This document shows, piece after piece, positions 2,266 to 63,660 of a DNA stretch of 64,000 nt. This DNA comes from Echinarachnius parma. Its lineage: Eukaryota > Echinodermata > Echinoidea > Clypeasteroida > Echinarachniidae. The notes under the pieces were generated by a model. That model was not told where the DNA came from, made no database searches, and saw nothing but the letters and a program-made list of their open reading frames with translations. How positions within the stretch are numbered: position 1 is the stretch's first letter; each line of letters begins with the position of its first letter. The translations under genes were made by a program, and so were the position numbers. The DNA lies in the NCBI GenBank assembly GCA_037951105.1, contig JBAMJV010005526.1, positions 52,501 to 116,500 of the forward strand, given 5' to 3'.

Positions 2266-2787
2266 GTATACACTGTATGAGCTAAGACTTGTTAATTATA
2301 ACATTCAAAATCTAATTTATACATCCAAGTTTTCGCTGCGCGCTTCGCGCGCGAACAGATTCTCTCAGTTTGTTATGTAACTTGTGTATGATCTGGGGTG
2401 AGTACTTTATCTCTACCGGGCATGTAGTTCCCGTGTGCCTACATCGGCATTGCTCTGGCTGATTGTGTGACGTACGTTGCACCATTTCAAGTATATAAAT
2501 GCAACATCTTAACCATTATCCCCCTCCCAAAACCTCCCATGGCTCTGCACCAGCCCTCGGTCGCTTCGCTCCATCGGCACTCATTCGTGGATGTAGGCTA
2601 TGTTGTTGGATAATAGTTGATGTGGCATATGGTTTATGTTGGACATGTGTATGAAAATAAATATAATGTAATATGTGTGTGTGTGTTGAAGTACATATTT
2701 ATTAGTGTGTCAATTATTTGTTTTCTTCGTGAAAAATATATTGAAGATTTCTGGTCGATCAAGTCATATCATGCTTACACAGATGCA

Positions 2788-3474
2788 CTAGATTGCACAA
2801 TTTCAAGTCCAAAAATGAAAAAGCTCCCTACCCTGGAAGGGGGGACACTCCCTCCCACACCCTCCCCCCAAATCATAACACGCTTTCCTAGATACAGTCA
2901 ATCTTACTCCCGAATTTCCTATCTAGGTATGCACCAGATTGCACAATTTCAAGTCCAAAAATGCAAAAGCCTCCTACCGTGGGAGGGGGGACACCCCTCC
3001 CACACCCTCCCCCCAAATCATAACACGCTTTCCTAGATACAGTCAATCTTACTCCCGAATTTCCTATCTAGGTATGCACCAGATTGCACAATTTCAAGTC
3101 CAAAAATGCAAAAGCTTCCTACCGTGGGAGGGGGGACACCCCCTCCCACACCCTCCCCCCAAATCATAACACGCTTTCCTAGATACAGTCAATCTTACTC
3201 CCGAATTTCCTATCTAGGTATGCACCAGATTGCACAATTTCAAGTCCAAAAATGCAAAAGCTCCCTACCGTGGGAGGGAGGACACCCCCTCCCACACCCT
3301 CCCCCAAAACATAACACGCTTTCCTAGATACAGTCAATCTTACTCCCGAATTTCCTATCTAGGTATGCACCAGATTGCACAATTTCAAGTCCAAAAATGC
3401 AAAAGCTCCCTACCGTGGGAGGGGGGACACCCCCTCCCACACCCTCCCCCCAAATCATAACACGCTTTCCTATA
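2788..3474. repeat. 145-bp minisatellite, five units
   Basis: There are about five head-to-tail copies of a 145-bp unit beginning near 2793, 2938, 3084, 3229 and 3374. Each contains TTGCACAATTTCAAGTCC, a GGGAGGGGGGACACC segment, CACCCTCCCCCC and CACGCTTTCCTAGATACAG. Unit-to-unit differences are few. The several short ORFs across it are repeat artefacts. Confidence 0.92.
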
Positions 3475-6544: not shown

Positions 6545-7878
6545 GAAAGAACCAGTCACGGCTTTGATGGCTTCCTGAGGTTTCGGAGTGTGCGATGCAC
6601 TAACCCCAAGTGTAAGGAAGTTATCGGATGGTAAGCAATTTGTTTTAATCGTCTGAACCCTTTTTTTTCTTCTTCTGACAGTTACAAATCATCATTGTTG
6701 TTGTTATGTTGGTGTAATAATACATGTATAAGGTCTAATAGTTGTGATTAATGTTCCTATATACTGACTTAACTAAACGGAGTTAATTTATGTTTAATAA
6801 TGTGTTTTCTAAATATAAACAAGTTTTACTTCGATTTGTAGTTAGCACAAGACAAAGGAAAAGGCAAAGGCAACCGTCAATAGGGCAATGTGGTTGAATG
6901 GTGGCTAGAGCAACCGGTCTAGCAATCCTGAGGTCTCGGGTTCGAATTTTATTCAAATTTTATTTCAGTAACTTAAACATGTAGAATGATTTAAAAAAAT
7001 ATCTCTCATCTATGCTTGATTTTATAGAAATATATCTAAAATTTGTTAAAAACGGCCAGAAAATTTGCGCAATTATTAGTCTTCGTGTGAATATTCTATA
7101 CAAGTTTTAAAGAATACATAATTACCAACGTTGCTCCATTATGTTTACATTGTTCATACAGATTATAGTTATCTATTTTACGTACGCTAAAATCCTAAAA
7201 TAGATAATGTGAGATGCATACAACCAAAATCCATCAACATTTTACTATCTCCAGGTACCATTTTCCGGATGCTGGGAACAAATCGCCTCCTTTCTACCTC
7301 TTAATTGTACAGAAGATGATAACGGATACTTACTGTAAGTTTGAGATTCTGCCTGTATAATCAGACACATTATTGTGTTCTGATATCAGATATACAGGGG
7401 CGGAATTGTTATCTTTTATACTTCTGTATACATTGTATTCTGAGGTATTTGTTTGTATACAGAGTTTCTTTTTTCAAATAATCGACGTTTTAGTTCAAAA
7501 TGCTTAAATTTCTACTTGTGTAAGAAATGTGTAGAATTTGTCGTATGTTGACTGAGAGTGGTACTATCATTCACTTCAAGTTTACATTTTGTAACATGCT
7601 GTTAAAAATATCAAATCTTATATCAAGCTACTCATAACGCGAATACTAGGTAACGTGGTTTCATATCTAACAAGTATGAATTATGATTATAAAATGTGAT
7701 GAAATACATTTAAATTCATGTTAGCCTGAAATTATATTAATTTTTAAAATTTTGAATACGAGTCTAATGGTAATTTTTGTATGTGTTTCAACTTTTATGT
7801 GTTCTAACAGGTGATTCGGATGACGAGGTCAAGAGGATTATGTCAACTTTCCAGGACTTGAAGTCATACATGGGCTAG
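6545..7878 (+). CDS. Gene 1: 3' end of Death/Mis18-like zinc protein (three exons)
   Basis: Three + strand exons, 6545-6630, 7255-7334 and 7811-7878 (TAG stop), join in frame with phases 0/2, 2/1 and 1. All introns have AG acceptors and GTAAG donors. They align with exons 6, 7 and 8 of gene 2. The first carries the second zinc knuckle, VRCTNPKCKEVIGW, with a C-x4-C spacing where gene 2 has C-x2-C. The second ends in LLIVQKMITDTY, against WLQAMITDTY in gene 2. The last encodes a short charged tail. Upstream exons (Death domain, first knuckle) are not in the window. The likely role is that of the family: a Death-domain adaptor or sensor with a beta-tent zinc module. An AATAAA at 8654 could be the polyadenylation signal. 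Exon structure was inferred by eye; the paralogue match makes chance unlikely. Confidence 0.75.
6883..6950 (+). repeat. tRNA-like sequence (SINE head or tRNA pseudogene)
   Basis: GTGGCTAGAGC resembles an A box and GGGTTCGAAT matches a B box at the right spacing. The 5' GGGCAAT has no complementary 3' acceptor strand, so it is not a functional tRNA. It lies in the first visible intron of gene 1. A tRNA-derived SINE head is the likeliest reading. Confidence 0.45.
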
Positions 7879-10692: not shown

Positions 10693-11255
10693 TTAAAGGG
10701 ATAGTTGAGTTCTGGTAAGGAGAGTACAGTTTTAGTGAAACTGAATTTTAGTAACCCAAACCTGCATCATTACATTACAAACTAATAGTTATAACTAGAA
10801 AGGAACACAAAATTACAAATGACGTAGTAAAGATCATGTTATCATTCAAAAAGAGCCGTTAAAACGTAAGAGGGCGCTCTCTAAACACTCATCGGTTTCA
10901 ACCATTTTGAATAAAATATTGTGCATGTGATGCTTTGTTGAAATAGTGATTAGATAGAGAAATAACCAACAACTATTTAAATACCTATTTTGTAACTTTT
11001 TGAAAAGAGGAAGCATTTTAAAAAATTTTTAACGGCTGGTTCAAAATTCTCTAATAAACCCGGGGCCCCGGGTTTATTACAAATTGTTATATTTATGGAT
11101 ATTTCAGCCGTTTCTGAATCGATTTTGATCAAACAAAGATGATTTTATTGTTTAAATATTATGCTCTTTCAAATTTTACACTCAGTTTTTCATTACCTCA
11201 CAAACCAATTAAGTAGTCTAGCGCCCTCTGTACCAAAACTCAACTTTCCCTTTAA
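10693..11255. mobile_element. MITE family D, copy 1
   Basis: A 563-bp element with TTAA at both ends and about 25-bp inverted termini (AGGGATAGTTGAGTTCTGG / CCAAAACTCAACTTTCCCT). It is nearly the same sequence as 61194-61756, and a diverged inverted copy lies at 26559-27080. It has an internal palindrome CCCGGGGCCCCGGG near 11058. No ORF. Confidence 0.88.
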
Positions 11256-11404
11256 GGTAGGGTCATTAGTATAAATGATGTATATTTACTCAATAAATTA
11301 ATTCACGCTATAAATAAATGATGTGTACTTTGTGGTTTCACTTTGCACTTGTCAATAATTGTGTTACAATGTTCACCTAAACCAAACACTTAGCAAATAT
11401 CTTG

Positions 11405-20519: not shown

Positions 20520-20802
20520 GTTTAAACCACCATGCGCGGTATAGCCGAAAAGACGCTAGGTAAACTGGCTGAACGTATTGGTTGCGAAGAGCACACCGTC
20601 ACAAAGCTTGGCTTAGAACTTGATTTATCATATATTTCCCTCAAAGTATATCATAAGAAGAACCAGGGATCAACTGCAGGGACATTGGCAATGCTCATAG
20701 AGTGGAAGCGAGATGTGTCACCATGGGAACAGGTGATGAAACTGAAGAGAGCGCTGACAGGGGCGAAACTGACAGAACTAGCGGAGATCTTCTTCCCCTC
20801 AG
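20520..20802 (+). CDS. Gene 2 exon 2, Death-domain exon
   Basis: The acceptor is TATACAG|G at 20519/20520, the ATG at 20532, and the donor CTCAG|GTGGTT at 20802/20803, leaving phase 1. It encodes 90 residues that align without gaps to the gene 3 Death exon, with about 45 of 86 residues identical by eye. Shared features: TVTKLG, VYH, GST-x-GTL-x-MLI-x-WK and LTE-x-AE. The whole domain sits on one exon. Confidence 0.85.
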
Positions 20803-23800
20803 GTGGTTTATATTTTGTTACTTTAGTTAATTCAAGGGAATTCATTCCATCAAATGAAATCATAACAAAATGTTAATTATTTGTTTCGTCAATTTTAATA
20901 GTGCGTTATTTTATTGGTTTAGTAATACAAATAAATGCTCCCGATGCTATACATGTTTAGCCATTCCGGAAGCCTCGTATTTGAATCCCGGAGAAATAAT
21001 ACTTTATTTGCACATTTGTATTTACATTATATATTATGGTCAGTTTTCCTATGGTGTGTTTGAAATAATTCCAAACATAGTTATAAATCTAAGTAGACAG
21101 GCAAATCATCAATTCACGGTCACGGGTAGACAGACGGCCACGGCAAAAGATGAAAATAACATTTAAAAAAGATAAATGGAAGGAGGCATCATCAACACAA
21201 TAAACAGACGAACATGGATCAAACAACACAGCCATGTAGTTAACTGTTAATGCACCACGTGTCCAAACAATCCAGTGTGTAAATGGAGAATCATGATTAG
21301 TACGGTCCTAAGCCTAGACTTGGGCATGATGAATATTTTACTAACATGGTTTGTTTGTTAGTTTGGTCATTGCTTTTAAATGAAATACATACATTTATCA
21401 ATTTTACCTATGCAATATTTATTTAATGGAAACACTTAGTCTATGGACAGGCGGTTCACATCTTAATCGTGCACTGAATATTTTATAAATTTATATTGTT
21501 GTTGTTCTGTTTGTTCACTTGAAAACATTTATATTCTGATCACATTAATACAGATAATGTATCATTGACATCATTGGACTCTAATGACTCTGGTGTGTGT
21601 TTGGATGATGCAGTGGAGATGTCTGGTCAAAGTAAGTCATACGCCAAATTAAGATGCATATCGATTGTTTATCGATTCCCCAAGTAATGAAAACTCTTAT
21701 TACAACCTATAAATTGAATCCCAGTGCATATTTGTATTTTCATTATAATTCACTCATAATAAGGGAAATAGTTGAACACCAGTACTTGTGTTCATTATCG
21801 TCCCGATAAGAACATTTTTAATGGGTAGTGTGGCATGGGACTTATAACCTTCAATAACAATCGCAATTTTTACCAGTTATACCTGAAGATAACATCCCTA
21901 CACATCTTTAAGTTATCACCTTATTTTATTTAAATTTGATATAAAACATTACAAATACCCACCCCATCAAGTTAAGCCTGTGAAATGCAAATATGACATA
22001 GTACTACACTCATTGCTAACTGTTAGTTTTGTTTGCATATTATTATCACATTATCTATTATCAATGTTTATGTTTCCAACATTTATAAAACCAATGTATT
22101 TCTTACACTATGCACTTGACTTCTAGATGACCATAAAAGTACAGTTCTCCGTTGTCGCAAGTGCGACAGGCCAGTAGGCAACATGCGTGACGTCATAAAC
22201 TGCAAGATATCCAGTGGGGCGCTCGGCTTTCGGATTGACACCATTTTCGGGATAGTTTGTCTTGTCCAGCTTCTTGATAGTGTTTTTTGTAAGTTTCGGA
22301 ACACTCATTAATGTTTGTTTTTATTTCTACTATAATCGATTATAAAACAAGTCATAATCTTACAGAAGCCCTCCCCCCCCCCCCCCCACCCCCACCCCTG
22401 TTTATTGACATGGTTAACGTTATGTTATTTGAATAATATGAAGGAAATATTTATCGGACGTTTTAGCTCATTTCTCATCCAAGGTAATAACCAAGTCAAA
22501 ATGGTCCCTTCGATAATTTATGAAACATACTATCTAGAACCATGGGTTATATCGGTCCTCTCCCATCACAGTCCAAATTATTCAGCGCTTGTCTCCTCAA
22601 ACTAATCACTACTTAGCAATTTCCATGCGAAGTATGATCAAATTAGGCAGATCGGGTTTGAGTGGGACATGAAAAGTAGTTTATATTTCACATGATCCTG
22701 TCTGAACCTTCTTGTATTTCCGATGAATAATTGCACAACTGATAACGTGGCATTACTCAAGGCCCGAACAAGTCTTTATTTTTGTTAACATTTATCATTA
22801 ACACTTTCCAGACAGTTATGATTAAGTATAGGTAACAGACATGGCAGATAAAGTCATTTTATATACACAACTTGTATTGCCTACATGCAATATATAAATA
22901 CAAACATATATTACTGTTTTGGGGGCAATTGAAGGATGAACCCTCACCCCTGTACCTTTATACTGCTGGAGTTGCCCATATATAACAGTAGTGGCTATGA
23001 ATTAATGGATAACTTATATTACCAATATGTTGAAAGACAAGATAACAATCAGTATATCAGTACAAACAAATTGGTAAAAGGACCCTACGGGAAAAGCAAC
23101 TATTGCTACATTGGGGCCGTAGGACGCTTTGTACATGGCTCTCTATGATGAGCTCATCTCTACACAGTCAAAACCTATACTATGCATGTTGTAAGCATTC
23201 AATCCTGTACATCTTCTTTTCTCTGTTAGACGTACCCAGGGTTTGTGATGTCACTATACAGAAGAATGTGTTTTCCTTTTCCTTTTCAGTTGATACACGT
23301 AAACCAGCTGGCAGATTTGATGCCATATCACTTTCTACGGCCGATTTGCGGGAATGCTCCAAAGTAAGTAAAGTCCTATATTTGTATTAAAGTGATCCAT
23401 ACAATTTATATTTATCCCCAGATATAATATTTGAGACTTCAATCATATACCAATATCATTGGAAGATTTTCGAAAATTACATGTGAGATTTTCACAGAAA
23501 AAAATTATGTTTACCTAGTGAAAAGAGAGTAAATCGATGTCGGATTTTATCCCGATCTTTTGCGTGAAGTATCCGAACTCGTATTCTATTGACTATGGTC
23601 GAAAGTGTCTACAGAAGCTTGAAACTTCAATATTAAATATTTCAATAATTACGAACACATTTGAAAAAGCAAAACCCATTTCATTCTTCTGTTAAACGAA
23701 AAAAAAAGTGTGAATGTTCCAAGTGATTTTGGTGGAATTTTCACAAAGTTAATGGATCACTTTAAGTTCTGATTAAAACTAACAAAGATGATAATAATTG

Positions 23801-26078
23801 CTAAATGGAAGTTATAAGTGTTCTATAAAAAATAGTACTTTTACAGACAACAAAAACAACAACAAACAAACAAACAAACAACTACTACTACTAAATGATG
23901 CTTGAATAATCATGTTCATAATGTGTAGGGGTTTTGTTTGTTTGTTTTGTTTTAATTTCTGAAATCCATATATATATATACAAGGTTAAAAACATAAATA
24001 ATTAAGCACATTTCAAATGATAAGAAAGTAAGTAAATATGTTAAGTATAGGCCTATAGACAAACGATTGGAAAGCCCATTTCAGGACTATTTTCAAAATA
24101 TTTCTGTTCTTCCATGGGGTCCAAATATAATAATGTACCTTAGCATGGCAATCTCTAGCACCGTCCCACTTCTAATCAATTGCTGTATATGAATACAAAT
24201 TGGTTTGTCATGATATACAGTACACTCTAATTTTCTCAGTAATTTTTAAAAACTATTTTATAAACAAATACTATAACATATATCGTATAATGTTGTTAGT
24301 GTAGTACACATATCAGGAATGATATTAACTACCGTAATGTAACATCCAGAAGATGTTCTTTTCAAAATGGCTCCTGCAACTATATCCTAAATTATACATG
24401 AAAAATACGTTTACATGTACCAATCAAAGTGTATTATATAAGTAATTTACGGGTGAATTAATGGCATTTTCTAAAATATAACTGCATAGAAAATACAAGT
24501 AAGTGAGAACAACTATAAAATTGAACAAATAACCTTGGTAACATCCTAGAGGTGGGACGTATCCGAAGAACATGATAGTGACAACGTTACAACATCCTAT
24601 ATCCTGTTGTATATACGATAATGTAGTAAGCCCTTTTATATGTAATTATCAATGTGAGTTTGATTTAAATATAATAATATCAAGCGTGTGTGTAATTATT
24701 TTACTTGCGATTTATTAGAATGATTTACCCCCTTCCTGCTTCCTGAATGAGTATATCATGCGATGCAAAGGCTGCTCGGAACAGATTGGATGGTAATAAA
24801 TTGCTCCTCTTGAAATGATTTTAATTCATCTGCATTGTACTGAACCAATAACAAGGTTGAAGCAAGTGGTTAATTTGCTAATGCAATGGATGTGGTTTTG
24901 AATGCGGTTAAGATATACATTATTTTGGCTTGCATTTCTAATACCATATTACGTGTAAGAAAATACTATATTTTCAATTGAGATTGTTAAACTATTTGTA
25001 TTACTTTTCGCTAAGAAAATTTAAATATAAAGTTGCATATACGAGGTTATTTAATACCACAATGTAAAGTAAACGAATAGTGGTAACCATAATGGGTTAA
25101 GTGTAAATAACTTTATATTTATTCTTTCAAAATATATCATGTAGCCTACTTTGATTATTTCTTTTTTGTGTCTTGACAATGATAACCTTCCACAGATAAT
25201 CTGTATTAATTATTAATCATGTCATTTATAAGAATATATTTTACAAAGGTTCGCATACTACATGTTTGATTTCACGTTGTTTTTAGACAAATCGAATTTA
25301 TCCACTTACTACATTAGCGGACGCTAAAGAACATTGATATCGAATACACATAATCTTCCTTACAATCTATGCATTTATTTCGCACAGGTGCTACAAACCA
25401 CGCATAGGTAGCAATGTGAAGCCTGTTTACGTCCTGTGGCTTCAGGCAATGATTACAGACACTTACATTAAGGATGGTAAGTTTGAATGCATCAGTCTGT
25501 CTCTTTCCATCACTTCTTTTAAAATGGGTTAACATGCTTTTGTAGTGGTTTGGCCTTTGTTATTTAAGCCATCATCTTTTGTTTGAAAATGTTTCATTAT
25601 TAGTATCATGATCAATTAATTCACCCGTATCAAATATTATTACATAGTACGCATGAACAGCATGACTAAATCAAAAAATAACAAATGTCGATAATTGTTT
25701 CCACACGGTTATTATTATGCAAGAAGAAGGCAGTTTAGAATTATGATGCGAAGGTGTGCATTCATTACTAAAATAGCGTGTTTAAAATACAAACTAGACT
25801 TGTTTTCAAACAGCATGCGTCTATATTTGTGATAAATAACTATGTCCGACGTGCCGTAAGACAACCAGTATATATTATTCTCCTTGCGCCCGTCTTTTAT
25901 TTGCACAAGTATATGAAATCAATACAAAGTATTTTTTAAATGGCTAGACTACTACTAGTCATGCTAGTCTGCTAGTTGTGTTATTTAATATTATTTTGTA
26001 CATTGTTTGCTTTCAGTCACCTATGAAAACGTAATAAACGAGATCACGAAGAAGATGTCCAAACTGCCAATCAAATGA
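20532..26078 (+). CDS. Gene 2: Death domain plus Mis18/Yippee-like zinc protein, 269 aa
   Basis: Seven coding exons: 20532-20802, 21554-21631, 22127-22288, 23290-23363, 24719-24792, 25388-25476 and 26017-26078 (TGA). They total 810 nt with consistent phases and GT-AG introns throughout. Residues 1-88 form a Death domain (six-helix adaptor fold of apoptosis and innate-immune signalling; conserved W58 in LIEWK and an LTELAE helix 6). Residues 91-122 are an acidic/serine linker. Residues 123-269 carry two zinc knuckles, C126-x2-C129 (LRCRKC) and C211-x2-C214 (MRCKGCSEQIGW), then WLQAMITDTY. The pattern C-x2-C-x3-[IL]-G-[WY]-x-Y followed by a hydrophobic strand and I-x2-Y recalls the Mis18 domain; Yippee and RIG-I-like CTDs share the beta-tent fold. 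The knuckle gap is longer than usual. The start has a good Kozak context (ACCACCATGC). No signal peptide or membrane segment. Function is inferred: a cytosolic adaptor or sensor. AATAAA occurs at 26558. Confidence 0.82.
22362..22400. repeat. Poly-C tract in gene 2 intron 4
   Basis: CCCTCCCCCC followed by C-runs and ACCCCCACCCC lies about 75 bp downstream of the exon 4 donor. Confidence 0.85.
23387..23765. mobile_element. MITE family C, copy 1
   Basis: It is 379 bp long, TTAA-flanked, with inverted termini AGTGATCCAT / ATGGATCACT. It begins only 23 bp downstream of the exon 5 donor of gene 2. The interior ATTTGAGACTTCAATCATA and CCAATATCATTGGAAGA matches 34316-34682, whose termini are longer. 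Confidence 0.8.
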
Positions 26079-26558: not shown

Positions 26559-27080
26559 ATAAAGGGATAGTTGAGTTTTGGTATAGAGGGCGCTGCACAA
26601 AATAATTTGTTTGTGAGATAATGAAAAACTGAGTGTCAAATTTGAAAGAGCATAATATTTTAATGACAGAATAAACTTTATTTGATCAAAATCGGTTCAG
26701 AAATGGCTGAAATATCCATATACATAACCATTTGTAATAAATGTGGGGCCCAACAATTATTAGAGAATTTTGAACCAGCCGTTAACATTTTGTTTTAAAT
26801 GCTTCCTCTTTTCAAAAATGTACAAAAGAGGTTTTTAAATAGTTGTTGATTATGTCTCTATCGAATCACTATTTCAACAAAACATCACATGCACAATATT
26901 TTATTTAAAATGGATGAAACCAATGAGTTTTGATAGAGTGCCCTCTTGCGTTTTAACGGCTCTTTTTGAATGATAACAGGCTTTTTATTTAGTCATTTGT
27001 AATTTTGTATTCCTTCCTTTACTAACATTCAGTTTGACAAAAACTGTACTCTCTTTACCAAAACTCAACTATCCCTTTAA
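26559..27080. mobile_element. MITE family D, copy 2 (inverted, diverged)
   Basis: Termini AAAGGGATAGTTGAGTTT / AAACTCAACTATCCCTTT, with TTAA on the right and ATAA on the left. The interior is the reverse complement of copy 1: its left end carries GAGGGCGCT and TGAGATAATGAAAAACTGAG, which are the right end of copy 1. Confidence 0.85.
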
Positions 27081-39242: not shown

Positions 39243-39572
39243 CTTCACTGATACCCAATTGTTAGACCTTAATTTTTTACTCGTAAGCCCTACTCTAGTT
39301 ACGTCGGAATGTAAATACAACCCGGCTTGTCTCATGTACTGACCTGTTCAGGTCCGTCTCACATTGTCTTTTTTTCACATCCCCTTTCTTTGTTTGTTAT
39401 TTGTACCGTAATACTTACATATCAATGGATGCAGGTCATGCCATGCAACCTTTCTGCTTGTAGATTATAAGCCTTCCATTCATTAATTTGTTTCTCTCTC
39501 GCTCTTAACTCTCGAATTAAGCCGTTACTTTATATACCACTATTGTTCACTTTTTATTAATGTTGATTGTAT

Positions 39573-40584
39573 TGTTACGAATTTTCATGATCGTATTTGC
39601 AAAGTATTGAACAATTATACCTGACCTGTAGTAAATGAATGTATAAATGTGTTTCGTCGTTGATTCATGTTTAGTCATACCTCCACTATCTCTTTTTCTT
39701 TTGATTCACATTCCTCAGTTCCTCGCCCTCCCGCGTGGGTCGTATTACTCTCGCCTTATCGTCTTGTTTTGGAATCAGAACAAGTGGCCCTCTCTCTCCT
39801 ATACCAAATACCACTTTCCTTTTCTAAAATTCCTTGCTATAAGTAGAACATGTTGACATTCTCTTGCTCATACTCTGAATTCCAGAAATTCCCCCATTCC
39901 ATAACTTTGGTGTTTTATCTTATTCCTTGTTTTAGAAAGAATGCTATGTTTTATATGATGTCGAAATATGTGAGAAACTATGCAATGTTTCTTATGATCT
40001 CGAGATATTTGAAATGCCTTACATATTTGTTGAAGACTTCAATACTTTTCTGCTTTCTGGTAAAGTGTATAAATGCTCATGTTTTCCGAAATGCTAGGGA
40101 GTCCAGAGTTAGGATTTGTACCACGGAGTCTAGAGTTCGAAGTTGTACCGGAGTTGTACCAGGGGGTTCGGAGTTGTTATAGTGACTGCTGAGTCAGTGT
40201 GAATCGGAGTTAGCTAGCTATGGGTTAGGTTGGAGTTAGTGTTTGAGTTAGTTCTGATCGAGTCAGCTGTGGTCTAGTCTTATTTATGCTAGTTCTGATC
40301 TGCGTTCTCCACAGGCTACAGTTATTAATCACGTATATATGTCAACCATTACGTGGTATCTACTTGTGAATAAACTCAAGCAATTATATTTCAGGACTTG
40401 AATCCTTACTTATTATTATCTCCTTGTGTTGGATTATCTGAGGCACGCTACCATGATTGATTGCAAATTGAACCTGTGTGATTGCTGAGTGAAATGAACG
40501 AATTAATTTAAAGACAAACACTACCTCATCATTATCGTCATCACCTTCATCCCAAACATTTGTCATCACCCGACATTTGTAACA
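39573..40584 (+). repeat. Left LTR
   Basis: 1012 bp, TG...CA ends, with AATAAA near 40370. Same length and offset (3770) as the right LTR. Confidence 0.93.
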
Positions 40585-43342
40585 CTGGTGTGCAGCGGTG
40601 GGATGATGGACTTTAACACGTGCCTCGGACATGACGCCGAAAAGAGATAATATGGACCCCGACGATCTCGAACATGGTGCTGAAGTGACGATGATGCTCC
40701 AGAAAGAAACCATAGTTTGTCTTCAACCATGGTCATGAGTTCCAGCATGGCTAATTACGGCGTGTGGTGGCTCTTAGTGGTCATCGATATGTTGGCGAAT
40801 TCGAGGAGAAACTTCTGGCCTGGTGTGTATGGAGATGGAGCGGCCCTCTCGAAGACCCCTTGTCATCGCCGTCCGCATGCCGTAGTTCATCGTCAGCGGC
40901 CGCGGGAATCATCACACAGGACGTCATGTGCGGCGTCGTTCATTCTTGTATGCTGGAACGGCTGGGAGTTCGAGTGGTACACGGACGGAATTACCTAAAA
41001 CCTGACCTATCGGCATGTAAAATATTCTGTAATTCGACGGCATCGAGGGAAGCGTTTAGACGTCATTAATCAGCTAGCACATATCTTGGAAAATAATATT
41101 TTAGATTTATGGATATATGGATCGTAAATTATGCAGAGCTGTTTAGCTGTATGGTAATGAAACGTGAACAAAGAGGTTTGTTTGCGACACAGCTTTAATT
41201 GATATTTGTGAGAAAAGAGTTATTTAGTTTTTATTAGTGTGATAATTAATCGTCTTTGATATGGAGCCTTGGGGTCATCGTTGCTGTTGTGGATTATGAA
41301 GCGAGGTGCGATATATTGTAGTTTAGGTTTAAGTTGTATTGTAGAAGTCGCGTTGTGATACAGCCAGTATGTGTTGGAACATACTGGGTATCTGTAAAAG
41401 TGGTCGCGCCGAAATCGGAGCTCAGGGGCCGTTGCCATGGTTCCGTTGGAACGAGCCCGGTAATTTATATAGTGTAGATTTAGATATCGCGACCATCACG
41501 CGGTCGAAGTACGAAACGACAACCTGCCCTGCGTCTCCAACACAGACGCCTTAGCCGGAATCTCCGGGCCGTAGGAAGCCGTCTTTCAACAAATCGTCCG
41601 CGAACGTTTTATAAACCAAGAAGCAGAAGATGATTACAACAGCGACATGGAAGCGATTACATCGGAATTTACTATCCCTATATCCAGATAGTATGTGCAT
41701 GACGAACACGACCGTGGGCATCGATCACGGCGGGTCTAGGCCAGACTCGGGTTGTGCAGTGGTGAAGATCGTCAGTATTTCGATAATTTATAAATTAATA
41801 CAATTATGATAATTAAACCTGGAAGCTGAGACAATAGACTAAAGACCTTCACTTGGTGTTGGCGAAGAAAGGGAACTTTATTCATTGCATGTCGACATAA
41901 ACTTATTAACTCTTGGACAATAATGGACTCAGTATGACCAAGGTTACGTTTTGACTTTTATCCTTTTATTTTCGTTTGATAAAATTGTGACATGTTTATA
42001 ATGTTTGTTCTGTATGCCCTGTGGACATTAATACAAATTCCACTAAGTTATTTTGATTGATTCAAAGAAAACGAGAAACGTAAACAAATTGAAGACAAAA
42101 AGAAAGAGAATGAACATAAAGTAAACATAAGAGTTGTGGTAAACAAACGTGTGTTGGTAGTTAATGTTCCTTGTAAGTTGTATACAGGAATTTGATGTGT
42201 CGGTTATTGTGCAGCGTTCAATTTTATGTTTGGATGTTCTCTTTCTATAAGTACTTGAATTTCGATCGTTTCTTGTTTCTCCTTTTCATGCATGTTAATA
42301 GTTTATTCCGTATTTTTGGTTCGCATATATTTTATACAGGGGTTGTATAGGGCGAGCGTATATTTTGTTGATGCTTGTTGTGTTCCGAGCAGTTAGAGTC
42401 TGCATACTCATGTCTTCAGTTCTTCTTTCTACCCTCTCTCTCCCTCTCTCTTTATTACTCACTCTGTCATTCCTGTACTGAGATGTGTTTGTTAATCATG
42501 TTCATGCACATTATGCAACCTGTTTTTTTTGTATTGTGCTGATGTCAATTTTTAAATATTGTATGGCAGTTGAATTGGTTCCGATTTATGTGTGCATACG
42601 TATATTTTATCATAACATGCTGGGATTTCTTGCTGATTGTCGTTGAAATTATATGTGGCAAAATGTGTTGATCGAAGTTAGGAACGGTGTTAAATGACAG
42701 CACTTACAAGTACATGACATACAGTATTGGTTGTGATTCATATGTTATGTTGCAATGTCGACAAGTTTCGTTTCGTTGGTGTTCTAACTTTGCCATTTTA
42801 TTTGGTTTTGCAGGAAATCACGATATGCGTGTTATCTCTTTTAGACCAATCACTTTTTTCTCTTCTCCCTCTCAACCCATATTTCTCTCCTCCTCTAACT
42901 ATCCACTATAACTCGTCCCTATCGCATTGACTCTCTCCCCTTTCGATTTTTCTCACCTGTTACGCCTGAATCTGTTCTCACTCTTGTATTTGTTTTGACA
43001 CCTATTGCGCGTGTTTATGTTGTACGTTGTAAATACACGTGATGTGTTATGATAATACATGTACCACATTTTTTGTGGCCAGACATAGTTTCGCAAGAAA
43101 GGAACTATTGGTCGACTTTGTTTTTATTATGTACTTGTTTAAACTTGATTTAACCATGAACTTTGATTGAATTGAGAACGCTGTTACTTTGCATCAGCTC
43201 ATAGTCTGTATATGATTTGTTTTCGTTTTACATTATTGTAATGTTATTATAATGAGTTATTGAAAATTGTTGATGAGCATTTGAATGTCCTCTTACTTTA
43301 ATCATGTCGATGAGGGCATCGACTTATGAGGAGGGGGGATAG

Positions 43343-44354
43343 TGTTACGAATTTTCATGATCGTATTTGCAAAGTATTGAACAATTATACCTGACCTGTA
43401 GTAAATGAATGTATAAATGTGTTTCGTCGTTGATTCATGTTTAGTCATACCTCCACTATCTCTTTTTCTTTTGATTCACATTCCTCAGTTCCTCGCCCTC
43501 CCGCGTGGGTCGTATTACTCTCGCCTTATCGTCTTGTTTTGGAATCAGAACAAGTGGCCCTCTCTCTCCTATACCAAATACCACTTTCCTTTTCTAAAAT
43601 TCCTTGCTATAAGTAGAACATGTTGACATTCTCTTGCTCATACTCTGAATTCCAGAAATTCCCCCATTCCATAACTTTGGTGTTTTATCTTATTCCTTGT
43701 TTTAGAAAGAATGCTATGTTTTATATGATGTCGAAATATGTGAGAAACTATGCAATGTTTCTTATGATCTCGAGATATTTGAAATGCCTTACATATTTGT
43801 TGAAGACTTCAATACTTTTCTGCTTTCTGGTAAAGTGTATAAATGCTCATGTTTTCCGAAATGCTAGGGAGTCCAGAGTTAGGATTTGTACCACGGAGTC
43901 TAGAGTTCGAAGTTGTACCGGAGTTGTACCAGGGGGTTCGGAGTTGTTATAGTGACTGCTGAGTCAGTGTGAATCGGAGTTAGCTAGCTATGGGTTAGGT
44001 TGGAGTTAGTGTTTGAGTTAGTTCTGATCGAGTCAGCTGTGGTCTAGTCTTATTTATGCTAGTTCTGATCTGCGTTCTCCACAGGCTACAGTTATTAATC
44101 ACGTATATATGTCAACCATTACGTGGTATCTACTTGTGAATAAACTCAAGCAATTATATTTCAGGACTTGAATCCTTACTTATTATTATCTCCTTGTGTT
44201 GGATTATCTGAGGCACGCTACCATGATTGATTGCAAATTGAACCTGTGTGATTGCTGAGTGAAATGAACGAATTAATTTAAAGACAAACACTACCTCATC
44301 ATTATCGTCATCATCTTCATCCCAAACATTTGTCATCACCCGACATTTGTAACA
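43343..44354 (+). repeat. Right LTR
   Basis: 1012 bp, essentially identical to the left LTR, preceded by a polypurine tract. Confidence 0.93.
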
Positions 44355-52109: not shown

Positions 52110-52492
52110 GGCATTTGTCTGCGGAGCATTTGGCGGCGGAGCAAATGTCAGCGGAGCAATTGTCGCGGAGCAATTGTCGGCGGAGCAAATGTCGCGGAGC
52201 AATTGTCGCAGCTTCGGAGCATTTGTCGGCGGAGCAAATGTCGGCGGAGCAAATGTCGGCGGAGCAAATGTCGGTGGAGCATTTGTCGGCGGAGCAATTG
52301 TCAGCGGAGCAAATGTCGGCGGAGCATTTGTCGGCGGAGCAAATGTCGGCGGAGCATTTGTCGGCGGAGCAATTGTCGGCGGAGCATTTGTCGGCGGAGT
52401 AAATATCGCGGAGCATTTGTCGCGGAGCATTTGTCGCATTTTTCGGAGCAAATGTCGGCGGAGCATATGTCGGCGGAGCATATGTCATGGAA
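52110..52492. repeat. 15-bp minisatellite (CGGAGCAAATGTCGG)
   Basis: About 25 head-to-tail copies of GGCGGAGCAAATGTC with AATTGTC and ATTTGTC variants. All three + frames and several - frames stay open because the 15-bp unit keeps phase. This explains the long repetitive ORFs on both strands. Confidence 0.93.
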
Positions 52493-54122: not shown

Positions 54123-54405
54123 GGTTAAATCAACATGCAAGGTATACCTGATCGGAAACTACTAGACTTGGTTGCAAGTATTGGATGTAGGCATGATACT
54201 GTCACAAAGCTTGGCGTAGCTCTAGGTATTCCATTTCCTACCCTCGATGTCTATCATGGAATGAACAAAGGATCTACTCAGGGAACGTTAACAATGCTCA
54301 TAGCCTGGAAGGAAGGCATCTCACTCGGTGAACAGGTGACGAAATTGAGGGCAGCGTTGATAGAAGCGAGACTGACAGAAATAGCAGAGAGATTGCTCCC
54401 AGCAG
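54123..54405 (+). CDS. Gene 3 exon 2, Death-domain exon
   Basis: Acceptor TATACAG|G at 54122/54123, ATG at 54135, donor AGCAG|GTGGTT at 54405/54406. The coding length (271 nt) and end phase equal those of gene 2. It aligns without gaps to gene 2, with W58 kept in LIAWK and LTEIAE near the end. Differences cluster in residues 5-21 and 60-65. Confidence 0.85.
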
Positions 54406-57400: not shown

Positions 57401-60400
57401 ATCGTGTTTCATTGGAAAAGACACTCTACCTGATGGACATAATCGTTGTGTTACTATATTTTGGGAAGTGCCCCGTTCCATTTGTTGGGCAACCCTGTAT
57501 TATCCAATTGGAATAAATGTGGGACCCACATTTGTTCGATGATTTCAGAAGAAAACAAATATATGGGGGGGGGGGGGGGTGAATGAATAGATCACCCCCC
57601 CCCCCCCCCCTCCCCAGTTGAATGGGTATCAATGACATGTCTACGCCCGTGGTAACCACAATTTTGCACCAAATAAAAGGTAACTTTGAGGAGCAAACTA
57701 CTTCCACAATTTTCGAGCAATTTTAATGAAACTTGGTACACTTGATGTTCTTGGAGTAAGGGTGTGTAAGACATACTTGCTATGTATGTTGGATAAGGCT
57801 CTCCTGTGGTAACCTCAATGTTGCACCAACAATAAGGTAACTTTGAGAAGCGACCTAATTCCACAATTTTCATGCAATTTAAAGAAACTTGGTACACTTA
57901 ATGTTCTTGGAGTAAGGGTGTGTAAGACATATTTGTTGTGTATGTTGGATAAGGCGCTACTGTGGTAACCACAATTTTGCACCAAATAAAAGGTAACTTT
58001 GAGGAGCAAACTACTTCCACAATTTTCGAGCAATTTTAATGAAACCTGGTACACTTGATGTTCTTGGAGTAAGGGTGTGCAATACATATTTGTTGTGTAT
58101 GTTGGATATTTAAGGCGCTGCCGATGGTAACTACAATTTTGCACCAAAAATAAGGTAACTTAGAGAAGCGACCTAATTCCACAATTGTCATGCAATTTTA
58201 ATGAAACTTGGTTCACTTGACAGCTTGATGTTCTTGAAGTAAGGGTGTGCAAGACATATTTTACGTGTATGTTGGATGAGGCGTTGACATGGTAACCACA
58301 AGTTTGCACCAAATAAAAGGTAACTTTGAGGAGCGAAATTTTTGAGCAATTTTAATCAAATTTATGGTACACTTGCTGTCTCGTGGTAAGGGTCACACAC
58401 CAGTAGGGGTATTAATCACTTTCAGTGATATTTCTAGGTCACAATTATCTTTGTCGATGTTAGTCTGTTTTAAGAACACCTTCCAACCCACCAAACATGT
58501 TTTTTTTTTCCTCCAAAAGCGAGCTGTCACTTGAAGTGCCGGAGGTGTGACTCCATTGTAGCCAATACATCGAACATCATCAACAATAAAATATCTGACA
58601 AGAAGCTGGAATCCAGGACTGGTAACATACTAGGTACTACGTGTATAGTCCAGCTTATGGGAACCTTCTATGGTGAGTATCGCACAATAAGTGTGCTGTT
58701 TTGTTAATGAAAGTTCAAACATATTTTTGAAAATAATACAAAGAAAATTATGAACGTAAACTATTTGAAAATGTGCATGTAGTCAAACATCGGGTTGTGA
58801 TGCAACTCCTCGCAGTGTACTCTTTTCGACCCAACTCCAATCCGATGCCATTGCCACTTTTCATAATTTCAAATCGGGTCAAATTTGGTTTGAACTATAG
58901 AGTGATAAAATAATACAGTAATGTTGTACATCCCTGTCATCGCCATCCAATTTAGTTTGATAGTAATGGTAATACCCATATATTGTACTGAGTTTTTATT
59001 ATTCGTTTTTATTATTTGTCCTGACTAGTTTAGAAAGAGGTGCAGAATTCAGAAATGTAAGTTTACTTTAAATAATAATAATAATAATTAATAATTTATA
59101 TAGCGCAGAACCTATGTATATATATTCGATTGCGCTTCAAGAGCTCCTATAAATACCATTCTACTACACAATGCTATATAATATATAGCATAATCATAAA
59201 TAAAAATTAAGTATGTTTTTAAAACAAATAAGTTTTTACTTTTAATTTAAAGCTTTCTAATGCTTGAGATTTCCTAATATCCACAGGTAGCTTATTCCAT
59301 AATCTAGGAGCTGCACAAAGAAATGATCGATCACCTATGGTTACTTTTGTTCTAAGTTTGGGGATCTGCAATGCTAGTGTGTCTTGTGTACTACGAAGAT
59401 TATGACCATGAGTTTGAAACTTAAGAGTCAATAATTCAGTAATATAACTAGGAGCTTGGATATTTAGCGCTTTATAAACTATCATTAACATCTTAAATTC
59501 TATTCTTTGACGTATGGGTAACCAATGTAGTTCTCTTAACAGTAGTGTTACATGAGCAAATTTAGTAAGATTACAAATCAATCTTGCACATGTGTTTTGA
59601 ACCCGCTGCAATTTTCCTATCTGTGAGTTTGGTAATCCATACAATAAACTATTACAATAATCTAACTTACTCGTAATACATGCGTGGACGACAATTTTCA
59701 TGCTATCTTGATCAAAATATTTACGGATGCGCCTCAAATTATAAATCATATAATATGCTGATTAACATACACTAGTAATTTGTGATTCCATATTCAACTG
59801 AGTATCAAAAAACACTCCTAAGTTTCTCACATTATGGGATGGTATTATAGCAGTATCACCTACTGATATACCATTTGACTTGAACTTAGATACCTGCTGT
59901 GGAGTACCAATGACTAATAGTTCCGTTTTCGTATCATTCAACATCAATTTATTTTGTAACATCCAAGTTCTAATGTACTCGATGCATGTTTCTAATACAC
60001 TAATACAATATTCTTCATTTAGTGTGTTAGGACAAAATGACAAATATACTTGTGTGTCATCTGCGTAGCAATGACAGGTAATAGTAGGGAACTCCTTTTG
60101 AATATTTGTGAGGAGTCTGCTTGTATACAACGTAACTACAGGGGGCCTAAACGTGACCCTTGAGGGACACCGGAAGGTACCTGGAACACATCTGATTCAA
60201 TATCATCCATTTCAACTGTCTGTTTTCGGTTACAGTCCGTTATTCCGAAGGTTCGTTATTCCGAAGGTTCAGTTATTCCGAAGGTTCGTTATTCCGAAGG
60301 TTCGTTATTCCGAAGGTTCGTTATTCCGAAGTTTCGTTATTCCGAAGGTTCGTTATTCCGAAGGTTCGTTATTCCGAAGGTTCGTTGATCCGAAAATAAA

Positions 60401-63400
60401 ATCGGGTTCGTTATTCCGAAGGTTCGTTATTCCGAAGGTTCGTTATTCCGAAGGTTCGTTATTCCGACGGTTCGTTATTCCGAAGGTTCGTTGATCCGAA
60501 AATAAAATCGGGTTCGTTATTCCGAAGGTTTGTTAGTCCTAAAATGAAATAGGGTTCGTTAATCCGAAAATTAAATAAATACGACGTAGAAAAGAATTGA
60601 GTTGATTTGATGTTGAGCAGTGTGGACTTGGGAAAGGGGATCAATCTTAGTCTAATTGCCGTGGCTGCATGGGGGGTGGGGGAGAAGGGGAGGGGGCAAA
60701 GAGTGGCTTTACAATTTCATTTCATTTTAGGAATAGCGAACCTTCGGAATAACGAACCTTCGGAATAACGATTCTTCGGAATAAAGAACCTTCGGAATAA
60801 CGAACCTTCGGAATAACGAACCGTCGGAATAACGAACCTTCGGAATAACGAACCTTCGGAATAACGAACCTTCGGAATAATGCAACAAATGTTCGGATTA
60901 ACGAACCCTATTTCATTTTCGGATTAACGAACACTCACTGGGTATAAGAAATTTGCGTGTTCGGAATAACGAACCTTCGGTATAACGAACCTTCGGAATA
61001 ACGAACCTTCGGAATAACGAACCGCACCCCTGTTTTCTATCAGCCAAGTATGATTCAATCCATGCAAGAACTTTACCATTAATCCAAAAGTGGGTTTTCA
61101 AAGTTTGTAACAGACGCAAATGGTCAATAGTATCAAAAGCGCCGCTGAAATCAAGTAAGAGCAATAGGCTAATCTTCTGGTCATTCATTGACATTAAAGG
61201 GATAGTTGAGTTCTGGTAAGGAGAGTACAGTTTTAGTGAAACTGAATTTTAGTAACCAAAACCTGCATCATTACATTACAAACTAATAGTTATAACTAGA
61301 AAGGAACACAAAATTACAAATGACGTAGTAAAGATCATGTTATCATTAAAAAAGAGCCGTTAAAACGTAAGAGGGCGCTCTCTAAACACTCCTCGGTTTC
61401 AACCATTTTGAATAAAATATTGTGCATGTGATGCTTTGTTGAAATAGTGATTAGATAGAGAAATAACCAACAACAATTTAAATACCTATTTTGTAACTTT
61501 TTGAAAAGAGGAAGCATTTTTTTGAATTTTTAACGGCTGGTTCAAAATTCTCTAATAAACCCGGGGCCCCGGGTTTATTACAAATTGTTATATTTATGGA
61601 TATTTCAGCCGTTTCTGAACCGATTTTGATCAAACAAAGATGATTTTATTGTTTAAATATTATGCTCTTTCAAATTTTACACTCAGTTTTTCATTACCTC
61701 ACAAACCAATTAAGTAGTCTAGCGCCCTCTCTACCAAAACTCAACTTTCCCTTTAAGAGATCACTTTTGATTCTAAGGAGTGCTATCTCAGTACTATAAC
61801 ATTTTCGATAAGCTGATTGGTTGAATGGCAAGAGTGAGTGAGAATCGAGGTGTTCGAGGATTTGTTGGGTAGCAGCGCCTTCTACCAACTTTGAAATAAT
61901 TTGAAAATTTCTAATATACCTCAAATTACTGAATTCTGTTCCAGTACCAGACTTTTTAAACAGAGGTTTTACAAGTGCAACCTTCCACAGAGCAGGGAAC
62001 TCCCCTGTTGACAAAGATACATTAATCATAGACTGAGGTTATGACAGGTAATAGTGCATCTAAACATTGCATCAGTAATTTTGTGGGCATTGGGTCCAAT
62101 GGACAAGATTTCTTACTAATGAGTTTCATAATCAAATTTTCAACATCTTGTTCAGATAATTCTTTAAAATCTCTCAGGACTACAATTTGTTTATCAAGTG
62201 GAATTTCATCAATAATGAAGTTATTTACATTACTAAGTTTTGATTCAATGTCATCATGAATTTTCTGAACTTTACCTCAAAAAGTAATTGCCTAAGTTAT
62301 TAACAAAAGTTTTTCTATCAACGTTACATGGCATAACTGGTTGTTTGTTTGACATATTCAACAAACCTTTCACAATATTAAACAGTTCTGTTGGATTTTC
62401 TTTATTTTCAGACACCAAAACTTTATGATGGGCTGTGCGTGCCTCATACAACAAGACAGAATAAGAGTTTCGAGCTGTATTATAGGCTTTCCAATCTTGA
62501 TCAGTTCTTTACTTCAACCAACGCTTCTCAATTGCAGCTTTCCTCTTTTTTCGTTTCTCTTCCAATATACTATCATTTAACCAGGGCACCTTAGGTCGCA
62601 AGACCACAGTCTTTACTGCTTTTGATGCATGCTTATCTAGCATTTCTTTGAGTGTTATGTCATACAATGTCGTTAGTTCAGAAACATCATTGGGCTTTTC
62701 TTTACAAAGACGACTTTCAACAATATCTTCTTTTAACGAATCGATATTGATTGCAGATAGCCTTCGAAATGAAATTTTCTTAATCGGAAAGTGAACTTTA
62801 CCTGAATTAAGGTAGCACATTACAGGAAAATGATCAGAGATAAGTGTTGAATGGGCCCAAGGTTTTCCCATTATAATGGAATCATCAGACTGCCGTCTGA
62901 TTAACAAATCAAGGGTGTGACCATGTATATGGGTACAAAAATCAACTAATTGTGTACAACACATAGACTCTAGAACATCTAGGAAAGACTTAGAGTCTCC
63001 ACTTACATCAACGTGTATATTAATGTTGGACAAGAGATGACTTTGAATATAATCGTTGAATTCCGATACAAAGCTGGACACAGATACAGGATTTGACTCC
63101 GAGTACGGAGGCCTGTAGATATTAATAAGACACAACTGATAAGATTTACTTGCAAAGTGATACTCTGCGTACTCAAAAGAGTTATTCTGACCAGCAGCAG
63201 TTTGTGAAGCATTGATTGTTTCTTTGAAGATAAGTCCTGTTCCCCCTCCACGCCGGTTCTTTCGTGGTTGATGCACGAACTTGTAACCGAGAGGTACAAA
63301 TTCATGTAGGACAGCTCTGTCCTTTATGAAATACAGTATATGTTGCTGTAGGCAATTGGACGTTCATAAATGTGTTACACATACTTGTAAAACCCCTCAT

Positions 63401-63660
63401 GTAAAGTTAGCATGACAATATTCTATTTATAACATGTATAATGTTTCAGCTCACTTTCTCAGTCCCTCTAACCACTTTTGAAAACGGTTCTATTCTTATT
63501 ACAAATATGAATGCATGTTATCCGTACTTGTTTTGTTTTTCTAATTTCTTATTTATAATGCAGCATGTAATTCTTTTAATTTTCAGGGTTCCTCCTGACA
63601 TACAGTACCAGAAAAGAAATCATCACACTGACTGATGCTGATGTGAAGATCGATGGGAAG
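54135..63660 (+). CDS. Gene 3: Death/Mis18-like zinc protein, 5' part (runs off window)
   Basis: Coding exons seen: 54135-54405 (Death domain), 58520-58672 (first zinc knuckle, LKCRRC, then [12 protein letters not shown] against IVCLVQLLDSVF in gene 2) and 63587-63660 ([19 protein letters not shown]; the same 74-nt length as gene 2 exon 5). Phases agree. The final donor AAG|GTTGAT is weak. The second knuckle and C-terminus should lie right of the window. No equivalent of the 78-nt linker exon was found in 54406-58519; that exon is phase-symmetric, so its loss keeps the frame. Introns are swollen by nested TIR elements, a minisatellite and a minus-strand LINE. The role is the same as inferred for gene 2. 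Alternatively the gene may be decaying, though no stop codon is seen in the three exons. Confidence 0.75.
54776..55340. mobile_element. PIF/Harbinger-like MITE nested in the complex
   Basis: Inverted termini TGCTACAGTCACAAATGGTC / GACCATTTGTGACTGTAGCA are perfect over 20 bp. A TTA direct repeat is on each side (54773-54775, 55341-55343), typical of PIF/Harbinger. The interior is built from CGTACGG, CGTACGAT and GGGCAC words. 565 bp, no transposase. Confidence 0.85.
55750..56095. repeat. Cluster of TTCTTGATATCAAGAA palindromes
   Basis: About ten variants of the palindrome TTCTTGATATCAAGAATT occur within 350 bp. Outer inverted segments GAATTACCATTGGTTAAC (near 55905) and AGCAATGGTAATTC (near 56068) suggest a smaller foldback unit. 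It also carries CTTTACAAAGGCGCCCTGCA, shared with 17611-17630. Confidence 0.75.
56627..56955. other. Intronic DNA of gene 3
   Basis: No linker exon equivalent was found. GGGATCGTATATTTTGTTTTCGAG and TTGATCAAAATC recall MITE D-like interior words, but no termini were found. Confidence 0.4.
56956..57499. mobile_element. Mariner-like MITE with long termini
   Basis: TA-flanked inverted ends CAGGGTGGCCCCAAAAAA / TTGTTGGGCAACCCTG, continuing with the shared GGAACGGGGCACTTCCCAAA. The arms continue as diverged similarity for more than 200 bp (for example TGTCTTTTCCAAAGAAA and its counterpart). 544 bp. The ORFs inside are artefacts. Confidence 0.8.
57565..57614. repeat. Poly-G / poly-C pair
   Basis: A G-run (57566-57580) and a C-run (57594-57610) are separated by about 14 bases and could form a G/C hairpin. 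Confidence 0.85.
57645..58390. repeat. ~160-bp minisatellite, about five units
   Basis: Units begin near 57650, 57812, 57966, 58125 and 58287. They share TTTTGCACCAAATAAAAGG, AGGTAACTTTGAGGAGC, CCACAATTTTCGAGCAATT and TTGATGTTCTTGGAGTAAGG. The third unit is closest to the first, suggesting unequal exchange. The repeated LKLLENCG ORFs on the minus strand are artefacts. Confidence 0.9.
58391..58519. other. Intron 3' end before gene 3 zinc-knuckle exon
   Basis: Ends in a T-rich tract (TTTTTTTTTTCCTCC) and AAAAG acceptor. Confidence 0.6.
60228..61029. mobile_element. TIR element made of 16-bp tandem repeats
   Basis: The 8-bp direct repeat CTGTTTTC flanks it (60220-60227 and 61030-61037). Left end GGTTACAGTCCGTTATTCCG; right end inverted GGGTGCGGTTCGTTATTCCG. 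Both arms consist of head-to-tail GTTCGTTATTCCGAAG units (left about 60237-60560, right about 60729-61021, inverted), with a 170-bp non-repetitive centre. It interrupts the LINE D RT just after DRKQ. 802 bp, no ORF. The superfamily is uncertain; the 8-bp duplication suggests hAT-like. Confidence 0.85.
61194..61756. mobile_element. MITE family D, copy 4
   Basis: 563 bp, nearly identical to 10693-11255. TTAA is at both ends (61194-61197 and 61753-61756). The LINE D frame continues across the site with a single TTAA, which proves a 4-bp TTAA target duplication for this family. Confidence 0.93.
62509..63363 (-). pseudogene. LINE D endonuclease
   Basis: A 255-aa open frame from 63276 plus an upstream extension ([11 protein letters not shown]). 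Motifs: [28 protein letters not shown] and [11 protein letters not shown]. The usual GDFN-type motif appears as [10 protein letters not shown], a divergent form. It is truncated at the N-terminus, so it is inactive. Confidence 0.85.
63364..63586. other. Intron DNA before gene 3 exon 5
   Basis: Ends in TTCTTTTAATTTTCAG, a normal acceptor. The short ORF at 63441 is not supported. Confidence 0.5.

Follow-up and report, generated by a model that had tools for sequence, protein, structure and literature searches.

A candidate protein joining a divergent Death domain to a Yippee/Mis18/cereblon-class zinc module, with tandem paralogues in Echinarachnius parma

A seven-exon gene of Echinarachnius parma (Echinodermata; Echinoidea) is predicted to join an N-terminal divergent Death domain to a C-terminal zinc module of the Yippee/Mis18/cereblon class. 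The gene, here called gene B, lies in a 64,000-nucleotide stretch of contig JBAMJV010005526.1 (assembly GCA_037951105.1, positions 52,501 to 116,500 of the forward strand), which we refer to as the window and whose numbering is used throughout. A first-pass annotation had proposed seven exons with consistent phases at 20532–26078 on the plus strand, coding for a Death domain fused to two C-x2-C knuckles. When these exons were translated, every border held: they join with AG/GT borders into a frame of 269 amino acids from ATG to TGA, with start phases of 0, 1, 1, 1, 0, 2 and 1 for exons 1 to 7 and no internal stop. Both knuckles (C126/C129 and C211/C214) are present in the spliced translation, together with I218-G219-W220-C221-Y222. 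Because paralogous exons recur in the same order and on the same strand up- and downstream, in genes A and C, gene B is, as far as its exons can tell, a real feature and more than a chance join (Table 1). The fusion itself is backed by Pfam, with both domains below their curated cutoffs, by pairwise and profile comparisons and by the tandem paralogues.

The N-terminal half of the gene B protein reads as a divergent Death domain. Death (PF00531) is the sole Pfam family retrieved at E values up to 10 for exon 1 of gene B and of gene C, and the alignment, spanning model positions 16–81 of 86, is near full length. A profile built from eight human Death domains, their sequences entered by hand, placed exon 1 of gene B (12.5 bits) and of gene C (11.6 bits) at the top of 2253 sequences (251 window open reading frames (ORFs) of at least 60 residues, 2000 shuffles and the two exons); the next ranks were the same two exons as ORFs, followed by the best shuffle at 9.1 bits. 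Alignment of the B/C exon pair with this profile by hhalign gave 82.7% over 78 columns, and a PDB sequence search with the pair returned no matches. An acceptor-like site, ctgtatacag, is conserved before both Death exons; the 12 bases that separate it from the ATG include an in-frame TAA. The in-frame TAA in both genes therefore argues that the Death domain forms the N-terminus and that, for this ATG, neither a helicase nor an extra N-terminal domain precedes it; a further, non-coding exon probably lies upstream. The ATG–TGA frame holds no DEAD/DEAH helicase of the kind that stands before the C-terminal domain in RIG-I-like receptors (RLRs).

The C-terminal half was compared with known beta-tent proteins by pairwise Smith-Waterman z-scores (500 shuffles each), given here in the order Yippee-like 5, human Mis18-alpha, fission yeast Mis18 and cereblon, the last a hand-entered sequence that scored 284 bits to PDB entries, the alignment not being displayed. 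The zinc half of gene B scored 5.2, 5.0, 3.0 and 4.0, its exons 5–7 scored 6.9, 5.2, 4.4 and 4.2, and its exon 3 scored 3.2, 2.1, 3.0 and 2.5. Gene A exons 5–7 gave 4.1, −0.8, 5.6 and 5.3, and gene C exon 3 gave 5.2, 1.6, 3.0 and 1.6. Between known families the z-scores run from −0.3 to 5.1, except for the two Mis18 proteins, which reach 21.4. In profile comparison, controlled by 60 column shuffles per family, the zinc half scored 29.8 (50.7%) against Yippee and 29.2 (44.9%) against Mis18, with best shuffles of 16.2 and 20.5, and 41.7 (91.6%; best shuffle 18.1) against Yippee, Mis18 and CULT joined; six pairings of the known families gave 12.6–23.7. Pfam also returned a weak match of the whole protein to At4g08330, another beta-tent family (E 0.073). 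Searched against PDB sequences, the whole protein and the zinc half gave chance-level matches only (a neurotrophic factor at E 0.72 and 0.35, a SAM-domain protein at E 1.8) or none, and neither NCBIfam (E up to 10) nor PADLOC (E up to 1) yielded a match.

Gene B carries the two cysteine knuckles and the G-[WYK]-x-Y strand that make up the Yippee-Mis18 motif. The first-pass annotation had likened its I-G-W-x-Y signature (218–222) to that of Mis18; the signature is present, but Mis18-alpha reads G-Y-V-Y and fission yeast Mis18 G-K-V-Y at this position, while Yippee-like 5 reads G-W-I-Y and cereblon, in the hand-entered sequence, I-G-W-K-F. Judged by these residues, the G-W-x-Y of gene B is nearer Yippee and cereblon than Mis18. 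In the structural literature, Yippee W82/Y84 and CULT W99/Y101 share one pocket, and the CULT aromatic cage consists of three Trp and one Tyr or Phe (PMC4287342). The pocket equivalents are W220 and Y222 in gene B and a Trp and a His in gene A. Gene B has only the W220/Y222 pair of this cage: at the places of the two cereblon cage Trp (hand-entered sequence), which precede the second knuckle by 11 and 5 residues, it has Pro and Glu. Gene A (6545–6598) has Phe at both places.

Several observations weigh against the assignment of the two halves. Neither reaches its Pfam gathering score: PF00531 gives 17.5 bits (E 0.0047) for gene B exon 1 alone and 12.9 bits (E 0.13) for gene C exon 1 against a threshold of 22.6, and stays below it in the whole gene B protein (E 0.049), while Yippee-Mis18 (PF03226) gives 23.2 bits (E 7.9e-5) for the whole protein against a threshold of 26.6 and drops to 18.2 bits (E 0.0029) for the zinc half alone. 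Generic zinc families match the gene B protein weakly (E 0.08–1.5); in Pfam, gene C exon 3 and a composite of paralogue parts matched nothing, and the gene A tail matched not Yippee-Mis18 but only an unrelated family (E 0.068). The z-score of −0.8 between the gene A tail and Mis18-alpha, and a CULT profile score of 21.6 (6.0%) that barely exceeds its best shuffle at 19.6, point the same way, as does the His of gene A at the position of Y222. The joint-profile match spans just 17 columns around the second knuckle (22–30 for single families), and the knuckles stand 82 residues apart in gene B versus 51–65 in five references. Because of the profile scores, this short matched core and the wide knuckle spacing, the zinc half appears to form a divergent branch of its own, close to Yippee, Mis18 and CULT, and not to be an RLR domain.

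Three tandem copies of the gene appear to lie in the window. Genes A and C are only partly visible and run off it, so they may be complete beyond its ends. Gene C, 33.6 kb downstream of gene B on the same strand, has a Death exon (46 of 90 columns identical to that of gene B, 51% at the amino acid level) and then, starting 4.1 kb behind it, a first-knuckle exon with 41–43% amino acid identity to gene B over the aligned part. Gene A, upstream on the same strand, has copies of exons 5–7. The splice phases of all five paralogous exons (A 5–7, C 1 and 3) equal those of gene B, with two reservations: for gene A exon 5 the acceptor is the one of several adjacent AGs that gave the fitting phase, and gene A exon 7, whose tail is barely similar to that of gene B, was placed by frame and position. 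The C-x(2-4)-C…I-G-W core is kept in genes A and B; the spacing of the second knuckle differs within the family (C-x4-C at 6596–6631 in gene A, C-x2-C in gene B), and gene A reads GWYH where gene B has GWCY. Exon enumeration in the window gave no convincing gene C exon 2, 4, 5 or 6 and no convincing gene A exon 3 or 4, and the first knuckle of gene A was not seen within it; gene A exons 1 and 2 and gene C exon 7, sought by tblastn only, were not found. A 74-nt candidate for gene C exon 4, with a poor donor (GTTGAT), resembles exon 4 of gene B at a score of 26, which 31 of 200 shuffled queries equalled. A tandem array of 156-bp units sits in what is presumably the intron leading to gene C exon 3, and the inverted third copy of a dispersed repeat lies just behind gene B.

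Selection between the copies was examined by Nei-Gojobori counts with bootstrap ranges. For exon 1, genes B and C give pS 0.44 and pN 0.29 (pN/pS 0.46–0.93, below 1); for exon 3 they give pS 0.84 and pN 0.39 (pN/pS 0.31–0.66, also below 1, with synonymous sites saturated). Exons 5–7 of genes A and B, with their divergent tails counted, give pS 0.59 and pN 0.51 and a pN/pS range of 0.63–1.24 that spans 1 and so takes in neutrality, a point against the explanation preferred below. At synonymous sites, B and C have diverged less in exon 1 than in exon 3; gene conversion of the Death exon might produce such a pattern. Tandem, diverging copies are compatible with a fast-evolving sensor or adaptor family.

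Our preferred explanation, which we hold with as much doubt as confidence, is that these genes encode small tandem-duplicated adaptors or sensors in which the beta-tent pocket or dimer controls assembly of the Death domain. Gene B would then be a complete, small two-domain protein, probably cytosolic, in which a Death domain is followed by a short Ser/Asp-rich linker, a beta-tent with a longer insert than usual in its class and a probably helical tail. The four cysteines would hold one zinc ion, and the pocket with W220 and Y222, a Trp plus Tyr/Phe pair in Yippee and cereblon, would bind a ligand or a protein segment. Such binding, possibly together with beta-tent dimerisation as in Mis18, could bring Death domains together, and the clustered domains could then engage Death-domain partners of apoptotic or innate-immune pathways. 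The joined domains have support at the sequence level, whereas zinc, pocket, ligand, oligomerisation and pathway are inferred, as is the link from ligand sensing to apoptosis or NF-kappaB put forward in the first-pass annotation. A bolder version, which we offer tentatively and rate as rather doubtful, is that the family represents a lineage-expanded class of cell-death receptors in the cytosol that lack helicase, NACHT and LRR and use a Yippee/cereblon-type beta-tent pocket to sense a small molecule or the modified end of a protein directly, thereby gating Death-domain assembly.

Alternatively, the beta-tent may be a constitutive dimer or oligomer module, as in Mis18, and the protein a scaffold that pre-clusters Death domains. 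According to PMC4818781, the Yippee-like domain of Mis18 dimerises and mutations in its pocket impair function to differing extents; the full-length protein, which includes a C-terminal helical part, forms a tetramer. Gene B, too, has a tail after the domain, and the z-score of its zinc half to Mis18-alpha is 5.0; the W-x-Y pair, however, is of the Yippee/cereblon type and its Trp is kept in gene A, and we consider the scaffold unlikely. It is improbable that the C-terminal half is instead a substrate-recognition module tying Death complexes to ubiquitin ligases. Yippee-like 5 belongs to the CTLH ligase, and gene B resembles both Yippee-like 5 and cereblon besides Mis18. Cereblon is itself part of a ligase (PMC4287342). 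No ligase-binding part was recognised, however, and Pfam sees only two domains in the 269 residues.

The first-pass annotation had also raised a RIG-I-like C-terminal domain, which would here be an RNA-sensing module fused to Death without a helicase. Gene A has a C-x4-C knuckle as in RIG-I, gene C exon 3 reaches a z-score of 3.9 to RIG-I, and Death-bearing RLRs occur in molluscs (PMC8998645). The zinc half of gene B is basic (net +6.8), and because of this charge nucleic-acid binding by it may still occur. Against this identification, RIG-I_C-RD (PF11648) scores 12 bits (E 0.25) under a gathering score of 25.6, the RLR profile scores 16.3 (1.0%) under a best shuffle of 18.5, the RIG-I z-scores are 0.7 for the zinc half of gene B, −0.1 for its exons 5–7, 1.8 for its exon 3 and −0.2 for gene A exons 5–7, and no helicase is present. 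We rejected a RIG-I-like domain on these scores and give an RNA sensor of this type little credence.

A false join, with the Death exon transcribed apart from the zinc exons, is equally hard to credit. The gene model is known from genomic sequence alone, and exons 2 and 4 have no confirmed paralogues, as such a join would allow; gene C, on the other hand, repeats order, strand and phases (exon 1, then exon 3), and an ATG behind an in-frame stop together with a terminal stop codon argues that the chain is complete. Decaying pseudogenes among transposons are the least probable alternative: within the window only parts of genes A and C are seen, amid reverse-transcriptase ORFs and repeats, and the A/B pN/pS range includes 1, but gene B runs without stop or frameshift over 269 codons, pN/pS is below 1 for B/C exons 1 and 3, and genes A and C extend past the window. 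A prokaryotic or viral origin was also rejected, as no relatives were confirmed among 20 pattern matches to gene B in viral contigs or 205 to the Death pair in genome contigs, searches from which the window's own genome records were possibly excluded.

Several known systems share part of this architecture. Yippee is a stand-alone domain, and cereblon carries a LON domain; a Death domain is not known to be part of Mis18. Yippee/YPEL proteins (PF03226; Yippee-like 5, PDB 8qbn) share with gene B the two C-x2-C knuckles and a C-x2-C-x3-[LI]-G-W-x-Y core, but in gene B the domain is fused to Death, falls under the Pfam cutoff and has its knuckles 82 rather than 53 residues apart. Mis18 (PDB 7sfz, 5hj0 and 5j6p), like gene B, has a Yippee-like domain and then a C-terminal part (z-scores 5.0 for human alpha and 3.0 for fission yeast), and differs in reading G-Y-V-Y or G-K-V-Y for G-W-x-Y and in its centromere role. 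Cereblon CULT (hand-entered sequence) shares C-x2-C-x3-I-G-W-x-[FY], has a z-score of 4.0 to the gene B half and, at 65 residues, the longest knuckle spacing among the references; gene B lacks the LON domain and the two cage Trp, which are Phe in gene A. The nearest architecture met is that of the mollusc Death-bearing RLRs, which combine Death and a C-terminal beta-tent-fold domain in one protein and show lineage expansion (PMC8998645). They are set apart by a DEAD/DEAH helicase in between, of which gene B has none, its C-terminal half lying under the RIG-I_C-RD cutoff. Amphioxus innate-immunity genes (PMC2575513) show lineage-specific shuffling of signalling domains, Death included, onto new partners, as here; Yippee and Mis18, however, are mentioned 0 times in that text, and likewise in the Death-domain evolution paper PMC8195603.

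The remaining features of the window are listed at the foot of Table 1. The 999-codon ORF matches an endonuclease at E 2.7e-5, below the Pfam cutoff, and a reverse transcriptase at E 4.1e-33, and is apparently a non-LTR retrotransposon ORF. The 1015-bp direct duplication is either a recent event or an assembly artefact. No Rfam family matched anywhere in the window, and ARAGORN predicted no tRNA there.

Table 1. Exons of genes A, B and C and other features of the window
Feature	Position	Strand	Remarks
Gene B 5′ untranslated stretch	20520..20531	+	Behind acceptor-like ctgtatacag; in-frame TAA 20523–20525; equivalent before gene C ATG
Gene B exon 1, putative Death domain	20532..20802	+	Pfam Death; profile comparison
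Gene B exon 2, Ser/Asp-rich linker	21554..21631	+	Frame and splice borders only; no paralogous copy found
Gene B exon 3, first knuckle C126-x2-C129	22127..22288	+	Frame and borders; paralogous exon 58520–58672
Gene B exon 4, between knuckles	23290..23363	+	Frame and splice borders; no confirmed paralogous copy
Gene B exon 5, second knuckle C211-x2-C214 and I-G-W	24719..24792	+	Paralogous exon 6545–6630
Gene B exon 6, Y222 and strand VYVLWLQAMITDTY	25388..25476	+	Paralogous exon 7255–7334, MITDTY identical
Gene B exon 7, probably helical C-terminal tail, TGA stop	26017..26078	+	Gene A 7811–7878 of equal phase, little similarity
Gene A exon 5, C-x4-C knuckle, then KEVIGW	6545..6630	+	End phase 2 as in gene B; start phase 0 depends on chosen acceptor
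Gene A exon 6	7255..7334	+	Phase 2 in, 1 out, as in gene B
Gene A exon 7, TAG stop	7811..7878	+	Placed by frame and position
Gene C in-frame TAA and acceptor-like site	54123..54134		Before gene C ATG
Gene C exon 1, putative Death domain	54135..54405	+	Identity to gene B exon 1; Pfam Death
Gene C exon 3, first knuckle	58520..58672	+	Donor GTGAGT; phase 1 in, 1 out, as in gene B
Candidate gene C exon 4	63587..63660	+	Unconfirmed; like gene B exon 4
ORF, 999 codons	14196..17192	+	Endonuclease and reverse transcriptase matches
ORF, 563 codons	47393..49081	−	Acidic; repeated TRAVDD-like units; no Pfam match at E 0.001
Direct duplication, 1015 bp	39570..40584 and 43340..44354		99.8% identity; 3.77 kb apart
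Dispersed repeat	10693..11256 and 61194..61757		98.2% identical
Dispersed repeat, inverted third copy	26560..27036		85–87%
Tandem array, 145-bp units	2783..3472
Tandem array, 15-bp units	52111..52480
Tandem array, 156-bp units	57649..58337
Tandem arrays, 16-bp units	60238..60500 and 60730..61023

As the first-pass annotation suspected, no named family with this architecture came to light: the papers listed in literature searches contain, in their titles and abstract openings, no fusion of Death with Yippee, Mis18 or CULT, although an unnamed entry may exist in animal protein databases. Beta-tents of the Yippee class are of ancient origin, and for most of them no ligand is known (in part after PMC4287342). 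Should the protein be only a scaffold, it would add one further case of invertebrate Death-domain shuffling. If the preferred explanation is true, a Death fusion kept across tandem duplicates would tie the beta-tent fold to cell-death or immune signalling, and gene B would offer a small construct for asking what the beta-tent pocket binds.

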